Origin: Actinomycetota bacterium | GTDB lineage: Bacteria > Actinomycetota > CADDZG01 > JAHWKV01 | Assembly (NCBI GenBank): GCA_030447305.1 | Contig: JAUJPC010000005.1 | Span: 124,001 to 188,000 of the forward strand | Length of the DNA: 64,000 nucleotides | Direction of reading: 5' to 3' | Shown: positions 7,199 to 47,200 of the stretch, in pieces | How positions within the stretch are numbered: position 1 is the stretch's first letter | How the letters are laid out: each line of letters opens with the position of its first letter | Notes under the pieces: generated by a model | Seen by the model: the letters and a program-made list of their open reading frames with translations, nothing else | The model's database searches: none | Told to the model about the DNA's origin: nothing | Translations under genes and position numbers: made by a program

Positions 7199-9553
7199 AT
7201 GAGCGAAACGAAGACGCAAACTCTTCCCCTCCTGCCGTTGAAGGAGGGTGTGATCCTGCCTCATATGGTGGTGACCATCTCTGTTGATTCGGAGAGCAGC
7301 GACGAGTCTTTCGAGGCCATCGCGGCCGCTCGCCGGGCCGACGGACTGGTCCTGCTTGTGCCGAGAGTAGACGGCAAATACGCACGTATCGGTACCGTCG
7401 GCAAGCTCGAGGACAACGCCCCCCAGAGCGGCATGGCTGCGGGCGAAGAGGTTTACATCGTCCGAGGGCTCTACCGCGCCGTGGTGGGCCGCGGGGTCTC
7501 GGGCCTGGGCAACGCGACCTGGGTGGAGGCCGACGTGGCACAGGACCCCAACATCTACCCACAGGAGGTCCACGCGCTGGCCAAGGAGTACCGGGCCATC
7601 GTTGAGAACATCCTGGAGATGCGGGGCGAGCGCGGCGTTGCGCGGTTCCTCCGTGGAATCAACAACCCGGGCCATCTGGCCGACACCTCCGGTTACTCCC
7701 CGTACCTGACCTTCGACCAGAAGAAGGAGACGCTGGAGACCATCGACGTCAAGGAGAGGCTGGAGAAACTGCTGGTATGGAATCGGGAAACCCTGGCCGA
7801 CTTCTCCCTGAAGGACAAGATCCGCACGGATGTTGCCGAGGGGATGGAGAAGACCCAACGTGAGTTCCTGCTGCGCCAGCAGATGGAGGCGATCCGCAAG
7901 GAGCTGGGCGAGGAAGGTGACGACGTCGTCGCCGAGTACCGGGCCAGGTTCTCCAAGATCAACATGCCGGACGACATCCGCAAGGAGGTCAACAAGGAGC
8001 TGGACCGCCTGGAGCGGACGAGCGCACAGAATCCGGAGCAGGGCTACATCCGCAACTACCTGGACTGGATGGTCGAGCTGCCGTGGGACACCCGTTCCGA
8101 CGACAACTTCGACATCAATGAAGCTCGCGCCGTCCTCGACGCAGACCACACCGGTTTGGACGACGTTAAGGACCGGATCATCGAGTTCCTGGCGGTCAAG
8201 AAGCTGCGGGACGAGCGGGGCATGGGCGCCGTCCAGGGAAGGGGCCTCGGTGCCATCATCACGCTGGTCGGACCTCCGGGCGTCGGCAAGACCTCTCTCG
8301 GTGAGTCGGTCGCCAGAGCGATGGGCCGTAAGTTCGCCAGGGTATCCCTCGGCGGCATCCACGACGAGGCGGAGATCCGCGGGCACAGGCGCACCTACGT
8401 CGGAGCAATGCCCGGCCGCATCGTAAGGGCACTGAAGGAAGCCGGCACCAAGAACCCCGTGATCATGTTCGACGAGATCGACAAGGTCGGGGCGGACTGG
8501 AGGGGCGACCCCGCATCGGCTCTGCTCGAGGTGCTGGACCCGGCTCAGAACCACTCGTTCCGGGACCACTACCTGGACGTCGACCTGGACCTGTCCGAGG
8601 TGCTTTTCATCCCGACCGCCAACGTGGCGGAGACCATCCCCGGTCCGCTTCTGGACCGGATGGAGATAGTGCGGCTGGACGGCTACACCGAGCAGGAGAA
8701 GCTGGGCATCGCCAAGCATCACCTGCTCCGGCGCCAGATCGAGCGCAACGGCTTGAACGAGGGCGAGGTCCACCTGACCGACGCAGCATTGCTGAAGATC
8801 ATCGGTGACTACACCCGGGAGGCCGGGGTCCGGAACCTGGAGCGTGAGATCGGCAAGGTCCTGCGCAAGGCGGCCACCAAGATCGCTGCCGGGCAGGTTG
8901 CCACTCCGCTGACCATCGACGCCGGGGACGTCAAGGAGTACCTGGGACGCATCAAGTTCCATTTCGAGGCGGCCGAGCGGACCGGCGTTCCGGGAGTTTC
9001 CACCGGGCTGGCGGTCACCGGCCATGGCGGAGACGTGCTGTTCATCGAGGCCACCGAGATGGAAGGCAAGCCGGGCCTGACCCTGACCGGTCAGTTGGGT
9101 GACGTCATGAAGGAGTCGGCGCAGATTGCTCTTTCATACGTGCGCTCCCACGCCGAGCAGCTTGGAATCGCCGGTACCTTCGAGAACCGCAGCTTTCACC
9201 TGCACGTGCCGGCCGGTGCGGTACCAAAGGACGGTCCGTCTGCTGGAACTGCCATGACCACGGCTCTGGTGAGCCTGCTCACCGGACGTCCGGTCAAGGA
9301 GACGGTTGCGATGACCGGCGAGGTGACGCTTCAGGGCAACGTGCTGCCGATCGGTGGCGTGAAGCAGAAGCTGCTGGCGGCCCACCGGGCGGGAATGAAG
9401 GATGTCATCCTTCCCTACCGCAACGAGGCTGACCTGGACGACGTACCCGAAAGCGTGCTGAAGGAGCTGAACGTTCACCTGGCGAAGCGGATCGACGAGG
9501 TGCTCGCCATCGCCCTGGAGCCGAAGGAGGCTCTGGCGATAGAAGCAGCATAA
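7199..9553 (+). CDS. lon: ATP-dependent Lon protease
   Basis: A cytosolic AAA+ serine protease degrading misfolded and regulatory proteins; 784 residues, the normal length for LonA. The N-terminal substrate-binding domain starts TLPLLPLKEGVILPHMVV, followed by a coiled linker to about residue 320. Walker A is GPPGVGKTSLG near residue 357 and Walker B is VIMFDEIDKVG near residue 421. The catalytic Ser lies in PKDGPSAGTAM near residue 681 and the catalytic Lys in GGVKQKLLAAHRAG near residue 723. ATG 7199 is preceded by AGAGGA. The promoter appears overlapped by two MarR-like palindromes, which is unusual for lon. A strong hairpin follows the stop. Confidence 0.97.
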   Translation: MSETKTQTLPLLPLKEGVILPHMVVTISVDSESSDESFEAIAAARRADGLVLLVPRVDGKYARIGTVGKLEDNAPQSGMAAGEEVYIVRGLYRAVVGRGVSGLGNATWVEADVAQDPNIYPQEVHALAKEYRAIVENILEMRGERGVARFLRGINNPGHLADTSGYSPYLTFDQKKETLETIDVKERLEKLLVWNRETLADFSLKDKIRTDVAEGMEKTQREFLLRQQMEAIRKELGEEGDDVVAEYRARFSKINMPDDIRKEVNKELDRLERTSAQNPEQGYIRNYLDWMVELPWDTRSDDNFDINEARAVLDADHTGLDDVKDRIIEFLAVKKLRDERGMGAVQGRGLGAIITLVGPPGVGKTSLGESVARAMGRKFARVSLGGIHDEAEIRGHRRTYVGAMPGRIVRALKEAGTKNPVIMFDEIDKVGADWRGDPASALLEVLDPAQNHSFRDHYLDVDLDLSEVLFIPTANVAETIPGPLLDRMEIVRLDGYTEQEKLGIAKHHLLRRQIERNGLNEGEVHLTDAALLKIIGDYTREAGVRNLEREIGKVLRKAATKIAAGQVATPLTIDAGDVKEYLGRIKFHFEAAERTGVPGVSTGLAVTGHGGDVLFIEATEMEGKPGLTLTGQLGDVMKESAQIALSYVRSHAEQLGIAGTFENRSFHLHVPAGAVPKDGPSAGTAMTTALVSLLTGRPVKETVAMTGEVTLQGNVLPIGGVKQKLLAAHRAGMKDVILPYRNEADLDDVPESVLKELNVHLAKRIDEVLAIALEPKEALAIEAA

Positions 9554-38966: not shown

Positions 38967-40457
38967 CTACGTGAGGTAAGGCCTGAGGAGGTCCTCGAGC
39001 TTGCGCCGGTGATCTTCGGTTTCAAATTGGTGCAGGGCCTCCGAGGACAAAAGATGTTCTTCCACCCGTCCCGACCTGCGAAGGTACACCGCGGGATGTA
39101 TGTCGCCGGAGGCGTCGGTTTCCACGGACACCGCGACCGCATCGGAACCGGATGAGTCGACAAACCAGGCCAGCGGCAGGATGCCCTCGTCGATTATGCC
39201 GCCCTCATCGAAGGAGACGACTCGTGCCAGATAAGAGCGCTGATTCCAGAGCTCGGGCGCCCGGGTGGCTTCCGCCAGCAAGTGCGAAACGAGGTCGGCC
39301 GCCTGAACGGTTCTGTGACCGGTCCTTATGCCGAAGTGCTCGGCCGCGATATGCTCCGCCATTACCCGGGCGTTGTAGCGAAAGCCCTGGACGGCGGCCG
39401 AGTTGGCGGGGATGCCGTACTTGTTCAGCCCCGTTGCGGCCTGCGTGGTGGAGCCTGCGAAGTAGATGCGAGGCACGGAGACACTTTCCCAAAAAGGGGT
39501 CAACGCAGGGAGCCGGCCCTGGCTGAACACTGCAACGCCCATCTTCGGCAGGTCCAGCATCGGCGTGGTGAAGCCCGTGGCGGCGATCGCGTCGTCCACC
39601 TCGAATACGGAAGTACGCTTGCTTTTGGCCCCGGTGGCAGTTATGCGGTAACCGGAGTCGAGTCGTTCCACCAGGTCTATGGCAACGTCGAGCAGGACAT
39701 TGCCGCCTCCGAACACATGATCTTCGTATGGTTGCAGGTAGCGGGCTCGGGCACCAACGGCAGCATGCTCCACTACCGAGATCCGCGCCGGGCTGGGGGA
39801 GCCCAGGATGATCCGGCGAGCTACCGGCAAAAGGGCGTCCGCAAGCTCAAAGCCTGAATTGCGCTTTCCGACTATGAAGACCTCCTTGTTCCGATACTCG
39901 TTCAGGGGCTTCGTGTCGGCGTAATGAGGGACAAGTTCGAGTCCTGGGTTGGGAGGCTTCCATGGAGTCGTTGTTCCAATCGCAAAGACGATCACCTTGC
40001 AGCGGTACTCCCCTTCCGAAGTGCCGAGCACGAAGCTGCCCTCCTGCTCAGCAGTGCTCTCCCAGCGGCAGTTGTAGCGCACCTTGATTCCTGCTCGCGC
40101 CACGAAGGCGTTCAGGCCCATCTGCATCTCGGCCCGGGAGGGAAAGTAGAAGCTTCCATCCATGAATTCGGCAACCGTGGCCTGATGCCCCGGCTCGTCT
40201 CCCAACAGGCTGTTCCAGTCGTACCATTCGTACTCACGCGACCCGCGCTCGGCCGGAGCGTATGGCTTCGTCCAGGAGATCAACCGCTGAAAGTATGGAA
40301 AGCGCTGAAACATGCCCCCAGGGACAGGATCGGCGGAGATCACTGCATGAGGGAGGCCCAGGCGGGAAAGTGTATAGCTGGTCTGCAGGCCGCCGGGGCC
40401 GCTTCCCACCACGACCAAAGGGTAATCCCCTGGTGGGAAGGGCTGGAGGTCTACCAC
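38967..40457 (-). CDS. FAD/NAD(P)-dependent monooxygenase-like oxidoreductase
   Basis: 496 residues. FAD-binding Rossmann motif near the N-terminus (LVVVGSGPGGLQTSYTLSRLG), a second dinucleotide motif near residue 195 (EVFIVGKRNSGFELADALL) in which the usual GxGxSG is altered, and IAATGFTTPM near residue 290. The layout resembles class B flavin monooxygenases and YpdA/ferredoxin-reductase-like proteins. The last 100 residues have no assignment. The gene overlaps the upstream cyclic-nucleotide-binding gene by 7 bp, so the two are translationally coupled. Substrate unknown; a redox role under cyclic-nucleotide control is an inference. Confidence 0.72.
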   Translation of the reverse strand: MVDLQPFPPGDYPLVVVGSGPGGLQTSYTLSRLGLPHAVISADPVPGGMFQRFPYFQRLISWTKPYAPAERGSREYEWYDWNSLLGDEPGHQATVAEFMDGSFYFPSRAEMQMGLNAFVARAGIKVRYNCRWESTAEQEGSFVLGTSEGEYRCKVIVFAIGTTTPWKPPNPGLELVPHYADTKPLNEYRNKEVFIVGKRNSGFELADALLPVARRIILGSPSPARISVVEHAAVGARARYLQPYEDHVFGGGNVLLDVAIDLVERLDSGYRITATGAKSKRTSVFEVDDAIAATGFTTPMLDLPKMGVAVFSQGRLPALTPFWESVSVPRIYFAGSTTQAATGLNKYGIPANSAAVQGFRYNARVMAEHIAAEHFGIRTGHRTVQAADLVSHLLAEATRAPELWNQRSYLARVVSFDEGGIIDEGILPLAWFVDSSGSDAVAVSVETDASGDIHPAVYLRRSGRVEEHLLSSEALHQFETEDHRRKLEDLLRPYLT

Positions 40458-40879
40458 CGAAGGGCGTTACGCAACCGCATTGCCTCCGCCTGAAGGAGGC
40501 GGAACATCACCTTGGGGTTTGTTTCGAGGAAAGACTTAGTGGCGGGGCCTGGCAGCACGAGGCAGCGAAGCGGGCCGAGCGCCACTACATCCGCCGTGGG
40601 CGGCTCATCCAAAAGGATCGATATCTCGCCGAAGAAGTCACCGCGTGCCAGCTTGGCGATTTCCTTGCCATTGAGACGGACAGCCGCATCCCCATCGGCG
40701 ATCACATAGAAGCCAGTGCCGGTAAATCCCTGCCTCAAGATTCGCTGGTCTTTAGAGAACCACTCCTCGGAGAACGTGTGCGCGACCGCTTCCAGCTCGG
40801 GATGTGATAAATCGGCAAACAGCGAGAGGCCACCCAGCATCTGGGCCAGATCGTGCCGCTCTTCCAAGTGTCCCTCCAT
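40451..40879 (-). CDS. Stand-alone cyclic-nucleotide-binding domain protein
   Basis: 142 residues containing only a Crp-type cNMP-binding beta-roll: LADLSHPELEAVAHTF-like N-terminal helices, ILRQGFTGTGFYVIADGDAAV, then the phosphate-binding cassette FFGEISILLDEPPTADVVA. In Crp the cassette reads FGELALxxxxPRxA; here the Arg contacting the phosphate is replaced (PPTADV), so affinity or ligand may differ. There is no DNA-binding domain. It should act by protein contact, most simply on the flavoprotein encoded 7 bp inside its end. The cyclase genes lie divergently 186 bp away. Confidence 0.8.
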   Translation of the reverse strand: MEGHLEERHDLAQMLGGLSLFADLSHPELEAVAHTFSEEWFSKDQRILRQGFTGTGFYVIADGDAAVRLNGKEIAKLARGDFFGEISILLDEPPTADVVALGPLRCLVLPGPATKSFLETNPKVMFRLLQAEAMRLRNALRW

Positions 40880-41065
40880 AATGTGAGTCGACGCAGTTTA
40901 TAACTGTTGAAAGACGGCGACCTTTAGTTGCCCATGCGTCCTCGGTGCGGCGACCGCCTGCCAGATATTTCTGGACTGAGTGGACACTTCGTAAGGGTGT
41001 CTGGCGGCTTGTCGCGGTCGGTGAGAAGATAAAGGCCCGGTGTCGGCGACAAAGAGGTGAGAAAG

Positions 41066-43021
41066 GTGAGCCAGGCACTCGAAGAATCTTTGGTACAGGC
41101 TGCAAGAAGCGCAATACATCGCAACGCCTGGCACGAGGCCTTCGACCTATACAGACAGGCAGCCGAGACCGAGTCCCTCGATCCCGAGGATTTAGAGGAG
41201 CTTGCCAACGCAGCCTGGTGGACCGGAAGGCTCGAGGAGAACCTGGCCTTCCGCCAGCAGGCCTACACCGGCTATCTCCAGACGAACCAGCCCGGCAAAG
41301 CGGCTAGAACGGCCGCCTCAATAGCCCGAGACTATATGGGGAATCTGGCCGAGGCCATGGCGAACGGCTGGATCGGCCGAGCGGAACGTCTGCTGGAGAA
41401 TCAGCCCGACAGCCCGGAGCATGGGCAGCTGCTGTTCTTGAAGTGTTTTCAGTCCTTCCACAGCGGTGACTTTGAGACCACCCTCAAACACGCCAGGAAA
41501 CTTCTCGAGCTGGGTTCCCGTTTCGGAGATCGGGATCTGCAGGCTTTTGGGGTTTTGTTCGAAGGACGCGTCTACGTGGCGCTCGGAGAGGTTGAGAGAG
41601 GTCTGGGGCTGCTGGACGAAGCCACCGTTGCCGCGGTCAGCGGGGAGCTTGGTCCTCAGGTCACGGGCTTCGTTTACTGCATGGCCATCACTTCGACCTC
41701 TAGCCTTAGGGACTACCGGCGGGCGGGCGAGTGGACAGACGCCGCCAAGCGCTGGTGCGAGCGCCAATCCATCTCGGGATTCCCAGGCCACTGCAGGGTA
41801 CTTCGGGCCGAGATCATGCAGCTCAAGGGGATGTGGACAGATGCGGAGAGGGACATCCGCGTAGCTCTCAGTGAGCTAAAGGATTTCAACCTGTACCTGG
41901 CGAGTGAGGGCTTCTACGAGCTCGGGGAGATTCGCCGGCGCATGGGTGACCTGAGAGGGGCGGAGGAGGCTTTCCACCAGGCCGACGAGCTTGGGTGGGA
42001 GCCACAACCGGGAATGGCCCTTCTGCGGCTAAGTGAGGGGAACGTGGCCGCCGCATTGGGAGGGGTCAAGCGGGCGCTGGCCGATGACGTTAGGGGACCG
42101 CTCCATCGTTTTCCACTGCTCGCTGCTCAGGCGGAGATTGCGATCGTGGCGGGGGATCTGGCGTTGGCGCAGATCTCCGTCGGTGAGGTGGACGATATCG
42201 CGAGGATTTACGGGACCTCGGCGTTGAAGGCTTCCGCTTGCTATGTGAGAGGAGCACTGCAGGTTGCAGAGGGTGAGGCCGCCGAAGCACTGGAAACATT
42301 ACGTCAAGCTCTACGGCTGTGGAAGAACGCCGACGTGCCCTACGAGGTGGCAAGGACCCGGGTCATGCTCGCTCAGGCCTACACCGCAACTCGAGAAACC
42401 GATTCTGCTGAGCTGGAGTTGCAAAGTGCCGCCTCAACGTTCCAGCGGCTCGGGGCAACCCTTGACCTGCGTAAAGCAAATGAGCTGATGGGCGAGCAGA
42501 CCCAGGCGGTGAGGGCAGCGGCCCGGGTGACCAAGACCTTTATGTTCACCGACATCGTCAAATCCACCAATCTCGTTGAAGCGATGGGGGATGAAGCATG
42601 GGGAGACCTGCTGGAGTGGCATGACCGGACGATGCGCAGCACGTTCCTGGCCCACGGTGGTGAGGAGATAAAACAGGTGGGAGACGGCTTCTTTGTCGCT
42701 TTCGACCGCCCCGATGACGCCATGGACTGTGCCGTTGCCATTCAACGAACGTTGACAGATCATCGCCGTGCCCACGGATTTTCACCAAAGGTCCGTATCG
42801 GACTTCACTGTGGCGATGCCACCCGCAGAGGAGCGGACTACGAGGGGGGACAGGTGCACCTCGCGGCCCGCATTGGGGCAATTGCGGAGGGTGACGAGAT
42901 TCTTTTGAGTCGTACCTCCTGCACCGAAAGCAAGCGGCGTCACGAGGTCTCCGACCCACGTCTGGTGAGCTTGAAGGGAATCGCCGAGCCGGTGGAGGTC
43001 GTTTCACTGATCTGGCATTAG
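41066..43021 (+). CDS. TPR-repeat protein with C-terminal class III nucleotide cyclase domain
   Basis: 651 residues. Residues 1-480 form tetratricopeptide-like helical pairs (for example AWHEAFDLYRQAAE, GDFETTLKHARKLLELG). Residues 490-651 are a class III cyclase domain. Metal Asp residues are in FMFTDIVKST and VGDGFFVAF, the purine-specifying Lys is in EEIKQVGDG and the second specificity Asp in GADYEGG. The transition-state Arg is in VHLAARI, but the usual Asn is His. GTG 41066 is favoured over GTG 41057 by AAAGAGG eight bases upstream. The TPR part probably senses a protein partner. It is divergent from the cNMP-binding gene. Confidence 0.85.
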   Translation: MSQALEESLVQAARSAIHRNAWHEAFDLYRQAAETESLDPEDLEELANAAWWTGRLEENLAFRQQAYTGYLQTNQPGKAARTAASIARDYMGNLAEAMANGWIGRAERLLENQPDSPEHGQLLFLKCFQSFHSGDFETTLKHARKLLELGSRFGDRDLQAFGVLFEGRVYVALGEVERGLGLLDEATVAAVSGELGPQVTGFVYCMAITSTSSLRDYRRAGEWTDAAKRWCERQSISGFPGHCRVLRAEIMQLKGMWTDAERDIRVALSELKDFNLYLASEGFYELGEIRRRMGDLRGAEEAFHQADELGWEPQPGMALLRLSEGNVAAALGGVKRALADDVRGPLHRFPLLAAQAEIAIVAGDLALAQISVGEVDDIARIYGTSALKASACYVRGALQVAEGEAAEALETLRQALRLWKNADVPYEVARTRVMLAQAYTATRETDSAELELQSAASTFQRLGATLDLRKANELMGEQTQAVRAAARVTKTFMFTDIVKSTNLVEAMGDEAWGDLLEWHDRTMRSTFLAHGGEEIKQVGDGFFVAFDRPDDAMDCAVAIQRTLTDHRRAHGFSPKVRIGLHCGDATRRGADYEGGQVHLAARIGAIAEGDEILLSRTSCTESKRRHEVSDPRLVSLKGIAEPVEVVSLIWH

Positions 43022-43143: not shown

Positions 43144-46100
43144 ATGTACGACTCTGCCGGCGTTTCTACCGATTCCTTCACAATGCCGCCTCTTTCCCCG
43201 CTGGCGCTTCAGATGCGAAGGGTCAGTGGGTCGGTTGTGGGACGACCGGCTGAGCTGGCAACCGCTGAGAAGGAGCTGGCAGTCGCAAGGACGGGGCAGC
43301 TGGCCGCACTCACGTTTGAGGGAGAGCCGGGCATCGGCAAAACCCGTCTGTTGGTTGCAGTATCCGAGCTGGCCGCCGCCAATGGCTTCCTGCAGGTTGC
43401 GGTAACCGCCGATGAGGAGATCAGAGGCCCCTTTCTCCTCGCTCGAGCTATCTTCGGCTCGCTTGGCAGCCAGGCGATCGATGGCGCCGCCGTCCAGGAG
43501 GAGATAAGGGCGGTCACCGAGGCCCTCTCGGGACGGCAGGAGCCGGGGCTCGAGCGGCTGGCCTTGGATCAAAAGTTACTCAGGGTTCTCGATATGGCGG
43601 CTCAGGCCATTCGAAATATTGCCGCACGCCAGCCACTGGCTCTTTTGATCGACGATCTGCAGTGGGCCGACATCGACAGCCTTCGACTGCTGCGCTACAT
43701 GGTTCGTTCTGCCGCCGACCTTCCCATCTTCCTGGCGCTCGCGGTCCGGCCGGAGGAGATGGCCCTGGTCACCGAGGCGGAAACATTGCTGGCCGACATG
43801 GAGCGAATGGGGATGGTCCGGCGCCTGAAGCTATCAAGGTTCACTCAAATGGAGACCGCAGAGCTCCTGAGGCAGGCTCTGGGGGGCGCGGTGAACAAAA
43901 CGAGCGCAGCCACCATGCACGTTCAGGCCGAGGGTGTGCCCTTCATCATCGAGGAGCTGGCCCGCACTTACAGGGGCGCCGGGATGATCCAGGAGATAGA
44001 CGGCGTCTGGACGCTTGCGCAAAACGCTGGACGACTGGTGCCCTCGGCCGTGCGCACGCTTATCGAACGACGGGCGGCCCGTCTGCCGGAGGATACCAAG
44101 AGCGCTCTTGCCGAGGCGGCTATCCTCGGAAGGACATTCAGCCTGAGGGACCTGGGTGCGGTGAAGCAACGTCTCGGCGACGACGATGAATGCTGCAGTG
44201 CAACAGTGCTCGCCGAGGAGCTGGCCCCCGCGGTCAAGGCCGGGCTTCTGGTCGAGCTCCCCGAGACCTCGGCGGGCGACTACAGATTCGGCCATGACCA
44301 GGTGAAAGACTTCGCCGCGGAGGCCCTCACTGCCGCTCGCAGGCGAGACATTCACGGCGCGGTTGTGGACATGCTTACTGCCGATGGAGAGCCGGATCCG
44401 GCAAGCCTCTCGCTGTTGGCTCGTCATGCTTTGGCTGCGGGACAGACGGAGAAAGCGGCACGCTTTTCGATAGACGCAGCGAAAGTCGCCCTGTCCTCCC
44501 ATGCACCGGAGGAGGTGCTGCGAATTGTAGACCAGGCTCTGGCCGCCGCCTCCAGCCCCCTCGATCGAGTGGACCTTCTCTCCGCCAAAGATGAGGCTCT
44601 GGAGATGCTCCGACGCTCGACCGAGCGCCTGGAAGGCCTGGCCGAGCTTGCCGCCCTTGCCGTAGCCCTCGGTGATCCCCACCTCGAGCTCGAGATCATG
44701 CTCCGGCGGGCCGCAGCATTCCGGCTGTCCGACGACCCCGAGCGGGCAATCCAGGTCTCACGAGAGGTCAGAAGGCTTGCGGAAGAAGGCGGGGACCGGC
44801 GGGCCGAGCTCGCGGCCTGTCTGGAGCTGGGACAGGCTTTTTTCCGAACTCCACTTGGTGAGTCGTTTTCTCCGACCGCCAGTGAGGTGGACCTGGAAAG
44901 CGCCGGGGAGGCATACGAGCGGGCCAGCGTACTGGCGGAGGAGCTGGGGGATCTCCCGGCCCTCGCTGCGGCCAGCAGGGAGCTGGGCGTGATTGAGGTT
45001 GGGCACCTTCGCGCCTGGTTCGTCGAAGGGATAAAGCTGGGAGAACATTTGCCCATGATGCAAAGAATCGCCCAGGGCGAGCCCATGGATCCCATGTTGG
45101 CGGAACTGCCAATTGCTCCCCAGCGCCGCAAGGCCGAGGCCTACTACGAACGTGCCATCGAGCTGTTCGATAAGGTCGGAGACCGTCGCGGGGTCATGTC
45201 CTCCATTATCGCCATGGCTTACATGAACTTCGCGATCGACATCCACCTCCTCGGTTCTGCCAAGAGGATAGAGGAAATCCGGCGGCTGGCAGCCAGGATG
45301 AAGTCGCTTACCCGGCAGAGCGAGATGGGAATGGCCGAGGCCCAGATGCTCTACGGGGCTCACGTATTTGCTCGCGAGAAAGTGGTACCCGATCTTGCCC
45401 TTTCCCGAGGAGAAGAGGCGTACCAACAGGCCCGGATTCTGGGGGACCGGTCCCTCGAGTTTGCCACTGCCGGCGGCGTAGCCCTCGTTCACCTGGACCT
45501 CGGAGAGATCGAGAAGGCTGAGCGGTGGCTCAACAAAGCTGCCGCCGTGGCCGCTGCCGTGCCGACGCCTCTTCGTGCACGCCAAATCGCGCTTTGGCGA
45601 GGCATGGCACGGGCGAGGGCGGGAGACGCGGTCGGTATGCGCACCCACCTGGAGCGCGCGGTGCGGCTGACAACCGACCAGGGGAGGCCTGCGGCTCGAT
45701 GTGAGGCTCTGGCTCGTCTGGCGCTCGAGGCTGCCCGGCTTGGAGCGGAGACAGGTGACGAGGAGCTTCTCGCTATTGCGGAGGAGTCGGCCGGCGAGGT
45801 AAACAAACTCATCAAGCTGCTTCCCGGGCGGCCCCTTTGGGGAGCGCAGGCCGACGCCGGGGTGGCTTTGGTCGCGATGGCGAGGGGAGAGCCGGAAGTG
45901 GCCCTGGATGCTGCCCGATCGGCGCTCAACACTGTCCATGCCGCCCAGCGTGAGGATCCCAACCTGGACATCGTTCTGCCGGTGGCGAGGGCAATGCTCC
46001 TTAGTCCAAACGAAAGTGAGCGGGAGTCCATCCGTGAGCTGCTTCGGATGACGCTGGCGTTGATAGCCCAAAGAACCATTGACGAGGATGTCCGTGTGCG

Positions 46101-46419
46101 ATGGTTCCGGGGACCGGTCGGTCGGGAGCTCGCAGAGCTCGCCGGGGCGCCCGAGGAGGCATCGGTAGAAGCAGGGGAAGAAGAGGGGTTACCGGAACCG
46201 GAGTCGATCGGTCCCAAGGGGACAATGCCGGAGCTGTCGAAAGGGGAAACTCAACTCCTGTGGCTGCTGATCGAGGGTCGGACCAACCGGGACATCGCCC
46301 AGATTCTGGGCGTGAGCGATGAGGTGGTCGTTCGCAGACTTGCTCGAATGTACGGAAGAATTGGGGTTTCCTCACGAGGAGAGGCCACGGCCGCCGCGTT
46401 CAGAGAGCGGGTCGTGTAG
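43144..46419 (+). CDS. LuxR-family ATPase regulator (LAL-type, AAA/TPR/HTH)
   Basis: 1091 residues in the layout of large ATP-binding LuxR regulators. The N-terminal NTPase has Walker A (GEPGIGKTRLLV) near residue 62 and Walker B (LLIDDLQWAD) near residue 170. A long TPR-like helical sensor follows from about 430 to 980, and a C-terminal LuxR helix-turn-helix (LSKGETQLLWLLIEGRTNRD, IAQILGVSDEVVVRRLARMY) from 1020. In the C-terminal helix the usual T-V-x-x-H-L is VVRRL. It lies between two cyclase genes on the same strand; gaps are 122 and 43 bp. Its target promoters are unknown. Confidence 0.87.
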   Translation: MYDSAGVSTDSFTMPPLSPLALQMRRVSGSVVGRPAELATAEKELAVARTGQLAALTFEGEPGIGKTRLLVAVSELAAANGFLQVAVTADEEIRGPFLLARAIFGSLGSQAIDGAAVQEEIRAVTEALSGRQEPGLERLALDQKLLRVLDMAAQAIRNIAARQPLALLIDDLQWADIDSLRLLRYMVRSAADLPIFLALAVRPEEMALVTEAETLLADMERMGMVRRLKLSRFTQMETAELLRQALGGAVNKTSAATMHVQAEGVPFIIEELARTYRGAGMIQEIDGVWTLAQNAGRLVPSAVRTLIERRAARLPEDTKSALAEAAILGRTFSLRDLGAVKQRLGDDDECCSATVLAEELAPAVKAGLLVELPETSAGDYRFGHDQVKDFAAEALTAARRRDIHGAVVDMLTADGEPDPASLSLLARHALAAGQTEKAARFSIDAAKVALSSHAPEEVLRIVDQALAAASSPLDRVDLLSAKDEALEMLRRSTERLEGLAELAALAVALGDPHLELEIMLRRAAAFRLSDDPERAIQVSREVRRLAEEGGDRRAELAACLELGQAFFRTPLGESFSPTASEVDLESAGEAYERASVLAEELGDLPALAAASRELGVIEVGHLRAWFVEGIKLGEHLPMMQRIAQGEPMDPMLAELPIAPQRRKAEAYYERAIELFDKVGDRRGVMSSIIAMAYMNFAIDIHLLGSAKRIEEIRRLAARMKSLTRQSEMGMAEAQMLYGAHVFAREKVVPDLALSRGEEAYQQARILGDRSLEFATAGGVALVHLDLGEIEKAERWLNKAAAVAAAVPTPLRARQIALWRGMARARAGDAVGMRTHLERAVRLTTDQGRPAARCEALARLALEAARLGAETGDEELLAIAEESAGEVNKLIKLLPGRPLWGAQADAGVALVAMARGEPEVALDAARSALNTVHAAQREDPNLDIVLPVARAMLLSPNESERESIRELLRMTLALIAQRTIDEDVRVRWFRGPVGRELAELAGAPEEASVEAGEEEGLPEPESIGPKGTMPELSKGETQLLWLLIEGRTNRDIAQILGVSDEVVVRRLARMYGRIGVSSRGEATAAAFRERVV

Positions 46420-46462
46420 GAAATGGATAGCGTCAAGTGATGGCTCGAAGGGGGGTTTAGAG

Positions 46463-47200
46463 ATTCTTCGTGTCAGAGTGGACCGCCATCGGTGCATAGG
46501 TGCAGGCAACTGCATCAACATCGCTCCGACGGCATTCGATTGGCTGAAGGGCGACCTTCTCAAGGCGGACGTGGTCGATCCCGCCAGCGTGGAGGAGGAT
46601 CTGCTCAGGGACGCGGCGCTTTCCTGCCCAACCCAGGCGATCGAGATCGAGGAGGTCGGAGAGCTGCTCCCCTGGCAGCTTCGAGGCAGGGGAGGGGTCG
46701 GCCGTCGAGTGATGAAGACGTTTATGTTCACCGACATCGTGAAGTCGACAAACCTGGTGGAGGTGCTTGGAGACGAGGCGTGGACCGACTTGCTCCGCTG
46801 GCACGATGAAGTCCTCCGTTCGACTTTCGCCGCTCACCAGGGCGAGGAGGTGGTCGCCACAGGCGACGGCTTCTTCGTCGGGTTTGACAGCCCAGAAACG
46901 GCGATAGCGTGCGCGGTCGCAATCCAGCGCAAGCTGGCCGACCACCGAAAGCGGCACGGTTTTGCCCCCCAGGTTCGCATTGGAATACACGCTTCAGAGG
47001 CTGCCCAGATAGGCCGAAACTTCAGTGGCAAGGGCGTGCACGAGGCTGCCCGCATCGCCGCACTGGCTGAGGGCAGCGAAATACTTGCAAGCAAGGCGAC
47101 CGTGGGGGCCGACTCCAGCTATTCAGTGTCCGAGCCGCGAGAAGTCGTTCTCAGAGGCATCTCCGAGCCCATCGAGGTCGTCGCGATTGGCTGGCGCTAG
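46463..47200 (+). CDS. Ferredoxin ([3Fe-4S]-type) fused to a class III nucleotide cyclase
   Basis: About 245 residues in one continuous frame. Residues 5-65 are a short ferredoxin like those serving P450s: RCIGAGNCINIAPTAF with C-x5-C (no middle Cys, suggesting [3Fe-4S]) and a third Cys in ALSCPTQAIEI. After a linker (LPWQLRGRGGVGRR) comes a cyclase domain closely similar to the TPR-cyclase at 41066: FMFTDIVKSTNLVE and TGDGFFVGF keep both metal Asp residues, and VHEAARI keeps the Arg. The purine-specifying Lys is Val (EEVVATGDG) and the specificity Asp is Asn. No ATG/GTG/TTG precedes the ferredoxin; ATT 46463 lies seven bases after AAGGGGGG, and GTG 46478 is the first canonical codon. Confidence 0.8.
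   Translation: MLRVRVDRHRCIGAGNCINIAPTAFDWLKGDLLKADVVDPASVEEDLLRDAALSCPTQAIEIEEVGELLPWQLRGRGGVGRRVMKTFMFTDIVKSTNLVEVLGDEAWTDLLRWHDEVLRSTFAAHQGEEVVATGDGFFVGFDSPETAIACAVAIQRKLADHRKRHGFAPQVRIGIHASEAAQIGRNFSGKGVHEAARIAALAEGSEILASKATVGADSSYSVSEPREVVLRGISEPIEVVAIGWR

Follow-up and report, generated by a model that had tools for sequence, protein, structure and literature searches.

A ferredoxin-class III cyclase fusion encoded next to an AAA-TPR-LuxR regulator gene in Actinomycetota and Chloroflexota

The ferredoxin of the known six-transmembrane ferredoxin-cyclases is of the [2Fe-2S] type. These proteobacterial proteins, typified by Q132R4 of R. palustris, are class IIIb cyclases in which a cytochrome-b-like anchor of six transmembrane segments is combined with a cytosolic ferredoxin, and a redox input has been proposed for them (PMC4821796). 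They are the ferredoxin-cyclases described in the open-access literature, where our searches turned up no account of a class III cyclase carrying a fused ferredoxin of [3Fe-4S] type, and the terms sought were absent from the text of a survey of actinobacterial cyclases (PMC2447327); the architecture examined here is as unfamiliar as a preliminary description of the locus had supposed. Cyclases combined with transcriptional regulators are represented by the mycobacterial Mclx proteins (Rv0386, Rv1358 and Rv2488c), which carry a cyclase, an AAA/NB-ARC domain and a LuxR domain on one chain (PMC4452763). The fusion studied here may bear on the coupling between redox state and second messengers in the largely uncultured lineages that carry it.

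One frame from ferredoxin to cyclase

The window, meaning the whole 64,000 nt stretch of an Actinomycetota genome that was analysed, contains at 46463-47200 (plus strand) a gene of 245 codons plus stop (P0001) for a ferredoxin-cyclase fusion, with counterparts at 16 further loci. The frame is open without interruption over 46319-47200, and its part from 46463 to 47197 gives 245 residues without a stop. Pfam matches follow one another from the N- to the C-terminus as Fer4_13 (39.3 bits; cut-off 24.5), Fer4_15 (32.3; cut-off 22.4) and Guanylate_cyc (32.1; cut-off 21.9). They divide the chain into a [3Fe-4S]-type single-cluster ferredoxin domain (46463-46654), a linker with a conserved ELLPWQLR-type motif seen in the alignments (46655-46708), and a class III nucleotide cyclase domain (46709-47197), all on the plus strand. 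The preliminary description had proposed just this, one frame joining a P450-type [3Fe-4S] ferredoxin (C-x5-C and CP) to a cyclase, and both the arrangement and the coordinates proved right, the codon at 46463 being ATT. The ATT at 46463 is the likely start, since the aligned start in complete orthologues is mostly ATG, within 0 to 2 codons (GTG at the aligned place in L066 and one codon later in L069), and since a Shine-Dalgarno-like sequence, AAGGGGGG (46448-46455, plus strand), lies 7 nt ahead of it. The chain begins with the ferredoxin, and no hydrophobic membrane segment was found anywhere in its 245 amino acids. No named NCBIfam family corresponds to the fusion, LipJ and others scoring far under their cut-offs. 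Between 42900 and 47400, no sigma-70-type promoter was found, and terminator-like matches were mostly intragenic, none of them falling between the fusion gene and the gene preceding it.

Cysteine codons at 46493, 46511 and 46625 specify C11, C17 and C55, the last followed by Pro56, and the resulting C11-x5-C17-x37-C55-P spacing is that of Cys10, Cys16 and Cys54 in M. tuberculosis FdxE, a crystallographically proven [3Fe-4S] ferredoxin (PMC9868604). The place of the fourth ligand is taken by alanine (A14) instead of cysteine, which is the basis of the [3Fe-4S]-type assignment, and this residue and the three cysteines are unvarying in all 15 complete fusions. A domain-only structure model matched single-cluster ferredoxins in a Foldseek search, including those of [3Fe-4S] type (4ov1, 8amp and 4id8); AlphaFold confidence for this domain is low, with pLDDT at about 65, for which reason the fold assignment leans mainly on the sequence profiles. 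By motif and predicted fold the domain is a member of the [3Fe-4S] P450-type ferredoxin class, and we infer that the cluster formed in the cell is [3Fe-4S].

Recurrence of the fusion and its partner gene

Four full-length relatives, 64-75% identical, were recovered by a scan of GTDB contigs, and profile searches of genomes sampled from two phyla, that of the window and that of L027, brought the number of fusion loci to 17, counting the window. The carriers are Actinomycetota and Chloroflexota MAGs, and 14 of the 16 further genomes have a complete gene; L073 is interrupted by Ns and L074 is cut by a contig end, leaving 15 complete fusions for residue counts. Because independent assemblies yielded the same full-length architecture, at 63-76% identity, a sequencing error, a frameshift or two adjacent separate genes could be ruled out as its source. 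In a maximum-likelihood tree, for which bootstrapping stopped short of full convergence, the cyclase domains of the fusions group as a single clade (support 100/99) amid the cyclase domains of TPR-cyclase proteins, so that the fusion probably arose once. Both domains are under strong purifying selection, with dN/dS of about 0.02-0.24 in ferredoxin and cyclase alike for close pairs; between L071 and L072, for example, dN is 0.012 (ferredoxin) and 0.014 (cyclase) against dS of 0.58 and 0.43, respectively.

Immediately upstream of the fusion gene, and ending 43 nt before it, lies a gene for a 1091 aa regulator with AAA_16, TPR and LuxR (GerE) domains identified by Pfam (43144-46419, plus strand), on which the preliminary description was silent. 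A regulator of this kind occupies the same position and strand in 17 of 17 fusion loci, those of the other loci being about 50-60% identical to that of the window, and its stop codon either abuts the start of the fusion or is separated from it by a few tens of bases. Separate searches with a profile of the ferredoxin and one of the regulator C-terminus, covering nearly identical sets of 394-397 genomes, converged on one set of 13 among about 395, and the ferredoxin profile did so with a wide score gap (131 bits against 57 for the next-best ferredoxin). Twelve of these 13 genomes have the fusion. In the thirteenth, G046, the domains have been shuffled: cyclase, AAA, TPR and LuxR parts are on one chain, and the ferredoxin, about 78 residues long, is encoded by a gene of its own that follows, its GTG overlapping the stop codon of the longer gene (L035, G046:C80, 5341-9368, minus strand). 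This free-standing ferredoxin keeps the Pro-Trp of the linker motif, and the G046 cyclase sits on another branch of the tree than the fused domains. That ferredoxin, cyclase and regulator have been joined in two ways, a Rosetta-stone pattern, implies that the three work together, and with the adjacency at every locus the re-sorted parts make the fusion and regulator genes look like one functional module.

A 654 aa protein in which a TPR region precedes a class III cyclase domain (Pfam) is encoded at 41057-43021 (plus strand), and it is to proteins of this type that the fused cyclase domain is closest in sequence (55% identity between the two domains in the window). As had been noted earlier, this paralogue keeps the purine-specifying Lys and Asp (in EEIKQVGDGFF and GADYEGG); it also has His at the place of the transition-state Asn (VHLAAR). 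It is an optional neighbour: in the sampled phylum, a strong-scoring TPR-cyclase was found in four of the 12 fusion genomes (G000, G004, G101 and G179), and one adjoins the fusion in the window only. Many other TPR-cyclases of this lineage (L010, L011, L012, L047, L049 and L052) have Asp at the Lys place and a conserved VHxAAR for VNxAAR, and form a putative specificity group.

On the other side of the TPR-cyclase gene, and divergent from it, is a gene for a free-standing cyclic-nucleotide-binding (CNB) protein of 142 aa (40451-40879, minus strand; PF00027, 58.9 bits), which overlaps by 7 bp a gene for an FAD/NAD(P) oxidoreductase (38967-40457, minus strand; Pyr_redox_3, 91.2 bits). The same pair follows a TPR-cyclase in G011 (L009). 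The CNB proteins of L009 and of the window (region 38967-43021) have a phosphate-binding cassette without the usual Arg (FFGEISILLDEPPTADVVA), so their ligand may be unusual. At L104 (G397:C27), a class III cyclase scoring 204 bits to PF00211 adjoins a homologue of the oxidoreductase. CNB genes directly flank the fusion module at four of the 17 loci, as a convergent neighbour in L028 (G150), downstream on the same strand in L068 (G267), upstream in L069 (G111), and in L067 (G179) as a gene directly downstream of the fusion (7534-8793, plus strand) for an ion channel (Ion_trans_2, TLGYGD) with a C-terminal CNB domain; in G297 and the window a CNB gene lies within about 6 kb of the module. Over the 17 loci this amounts to four adjacent CNB genes where 0.14 would be expected (P about 8e-6) and six at a distance of 6 kb or less where 1.1 would be expected (P about 3.5e-4), figures that assume random placement at the measured number of CNB genes per genome and about 1000 genes per Mb, are uncorrected for short contigs, and come from a test picked after the first matches were seen. 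Fusion genomes are rich in cyclases and in CNB genes alike, and most fusion loci are without a nearby CNB gene. The excess of CNB genes near the module favours a live cyclase.

Cyclase residues and possible modes of action

Membership of the fused domain in class III is indicated by its Guanylate_cyc match and by a Foldseek match to Ma1120 (E 1.5e-17), and the catalytic domains of Ma1120 and Rv1900c are its nearest solved relatives (36-39% identity). The metal-binding Asp residues, D91 and D135, and the Arg, R197 (codons at 46733, 46865 and 47051), are present in 15 of 15 fusions, in keeping with the preliminary description. That account was also right in reading Val131 (46853) for the canonical Lys and Asn186 (47018) for the canonical Asp, but incomplete, as it missed His193 (47039), which stands at the place of the transition-state Asn in all 15. 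Position 131 is Val in five fusions, Ser in four, and Thr, Ala and Asp in two each, and never Lys; position 186 is Asn in 11, Asp in two and Ser in two. The Lys/Asp pair of canonical adenylyl cyclases is thus wholly gone from 13 of the 15, the other two having Asp without Lys. Loss of the Lys is common among related cyclases as well, so the changes are not the special feature of the fusion for which they had been taken. Ma1120 has Ala at the transition-state Asn place and is active, and an A164N change abolishes its activity (PMC4215837), so His at this position need not be fatal. Among the Mclx proteins, Rv1358 and Rv2488c also seem to be without substrate residues, and Rv0386, which is active, is reported to select its substrate in a novel way (title of a study cited in PMC4452763). 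With Ala tolerated in Ma1120, the Lys widely lost and Rv0386 active, the residues of the fusion foretell neither a dead enzyme nor a given product. Without the usual Lys to read the base, the domain probably has relaxed or differently arranged selectivity.

The reading that best fits these observations, to which we give about one chance in two, is that the fusion is a redox-responsive cyclase acting with the LuxR regulator as a two-gene signalling module. The [3Fe-4S]-type cluster would act as sensor for redox state or, alternatively, for O2, NO or the supply of electrons by a ferredoxin reductase, and the change would pass through the ELLPWQLR linker to the dimeric cyclase domain, altering its activity or conformation and with it the synthesis of a cyclic nucleotide. 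The fusion would work with, and probably bind, the regulator encoded upstream, which would convert the cyclase signal, or direct contact, into control of transcription. Here we infer catalysis, redox gating and complex formation, and as to catalysis on its own, an odd product included, the balance tilts somewhat towards an active domain. A bolder form, which takes up the redox gating and the non-cAMP product suggested in the preliminary description and in which the ferredoxin gates a cyclase freed of the Lys/Asp purine code (its product possibly not cAMP) with the AAA-TPR-LuxR protein as obligate partner, one redox event yielding both messenger and transcription, can be put forward only tentatively.

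Loss of the purine pair, together with His for Asn in all fusions, means that the cyclase domain could instead be a non-catalytic nucleotide binder. It would make no cyclic nucleotide, would retain binding of metal and NTP phosphates, and would serve as a dimerisation and nucleotide-sensing module linking the redox state of the ferredoxin to the regulator. Positions 131 and 186 have drifted while D91, D135 and R197 stayed fixed, as this reading would have it, and both G046 and the mycobacterial Mclx proteins have a cyclase in cis with such a regulator; among the Mclx proteins, Mclx2 and Mclx3, without catalytic or substrate residues, have been proposed to be nucleotide binders (PMC4452763). 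The complete retention of both metal Asp residues and the Arg, the strong purifying selection and the excess of CNB neighbours all speak against it, and we regard it as a possible but doubtful account. The domain might also be an active enzyme whose product is not a purine nucleotide or is a mixture (cUMP, cCMP or several), with the CNB proteins next door as its readers. This would suit the absence of Lys from every fusion, those CNB neighbours, and the finding that the remote sequence matches include a uridylate cyclase of solved structure (8jsz). It is nevertheless improbable, since loss of the Lys, being common in related cyclases, is not in itself a sign that pyrimidines are used, and since models of Pycsar cyclases score at most 18 bits. 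Membership in Pycsar (PycC) was rejected on these scores, the adjoining gene being a LuxR regulator with no Pycsar-type effector adjacent.

Two further explanations have very little probability. The fusion might pair with the upstream TPR-cyclase as the catalytically incomplete half of a redox-controlled heterodimer; the two share a neighbourhood in the window and 55% domain identity, the fusion keeping the metal Asp residues and the paralogue Lys and Asp. The preliminary description had raised a dead partner of this kind, but the idea is weakened by the patchy occurrence of the paralogue (four of 12 fusion genomes, adjacent once) and by the many TPR-cyclases that themselves lack the Lys; as a general rule, such a heterodimer was rejected on co-occurrence. 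Equally remote is an ordinary electron carrier, serving a P450 or the nearby FAD oxidoreductase, with the cyclase attached incidentally. There are P450 ferredoxins among the solved relatives, and the oxidoreductase gene lies 6 kb upstream in the window, but the remaining fusion loci showed no comparable oxidoreductase in their vicinity, and the ferredoxin is sharply separate in profile score (>130 bits versus 57) and follows the LuxR regulator everywhere.

Under the favoured reading, in which the ferredoxin gates a working cyclase, the fusion would add to the inputs of class III cyclases and provide engineers with a cyclase that is redox-controlled by nature. Were the cyclase inactive, its fold would have been re-used as a nucleotide and redox sensor for a STAND-type regulator, which would bear on the unexplained mycobacterial Mclx proteins. 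The protein is soluble, holds ferredoxin and cyclase on one chain and has a constant regulator partner, and at about 245 residues it is small enough for direct purification and testing.

Comparison with known systems

Like the Q132R4 type, the fusion has a ferredoxin directly N-terminal to a class III cyclase, but it is without a membrane anchor in place of the six transmembrane segments, its ferredoxin has the [3Fe-4S]-type single-cluster fold, its cyclase is of another lineage, and its partner is a LuxR regulator. With the [3Fe-4S] ferredoxins of P450 systems (Fdx and FdxE of M. tuberculosis; 4ov1 and 4id8 of R. palustris HaA2) it shares the fold and the C-xx-?-xx-C...CP motif, but here the ferredoxin is fused to a cyclase and adjoins an AAA-TPR-LuxR gene instead of a P450. 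The metal Asp residues and Arg are as in Ma1120 of M. avium and Rv1900c of M. tuberculosis, and Ma1120 is likewise without the transition-state Asn; Lys101 and Asp157 of Ma1120, in contrast, correspond to Val and Asn in the fusion, and Ma1120 has no ferredoxin. The TPR-cyclase paralogues, closest to the fused cyclase domain, have TPR where the fusion has ferredoxin and are unlinked to the AAA-TPR-LuxR gene outside the window. The Mclx proteins resemble the module in bringing together cyclase, AAA ATPase and LuxR DNA-binding functions, and altered catalytic or substrate residues are common to both. They have no ferredoxin, whereas the cyclase of the fusion is joined to one and would act in trans, the three functions being divided between two genes in the window and united on one chain in G046.
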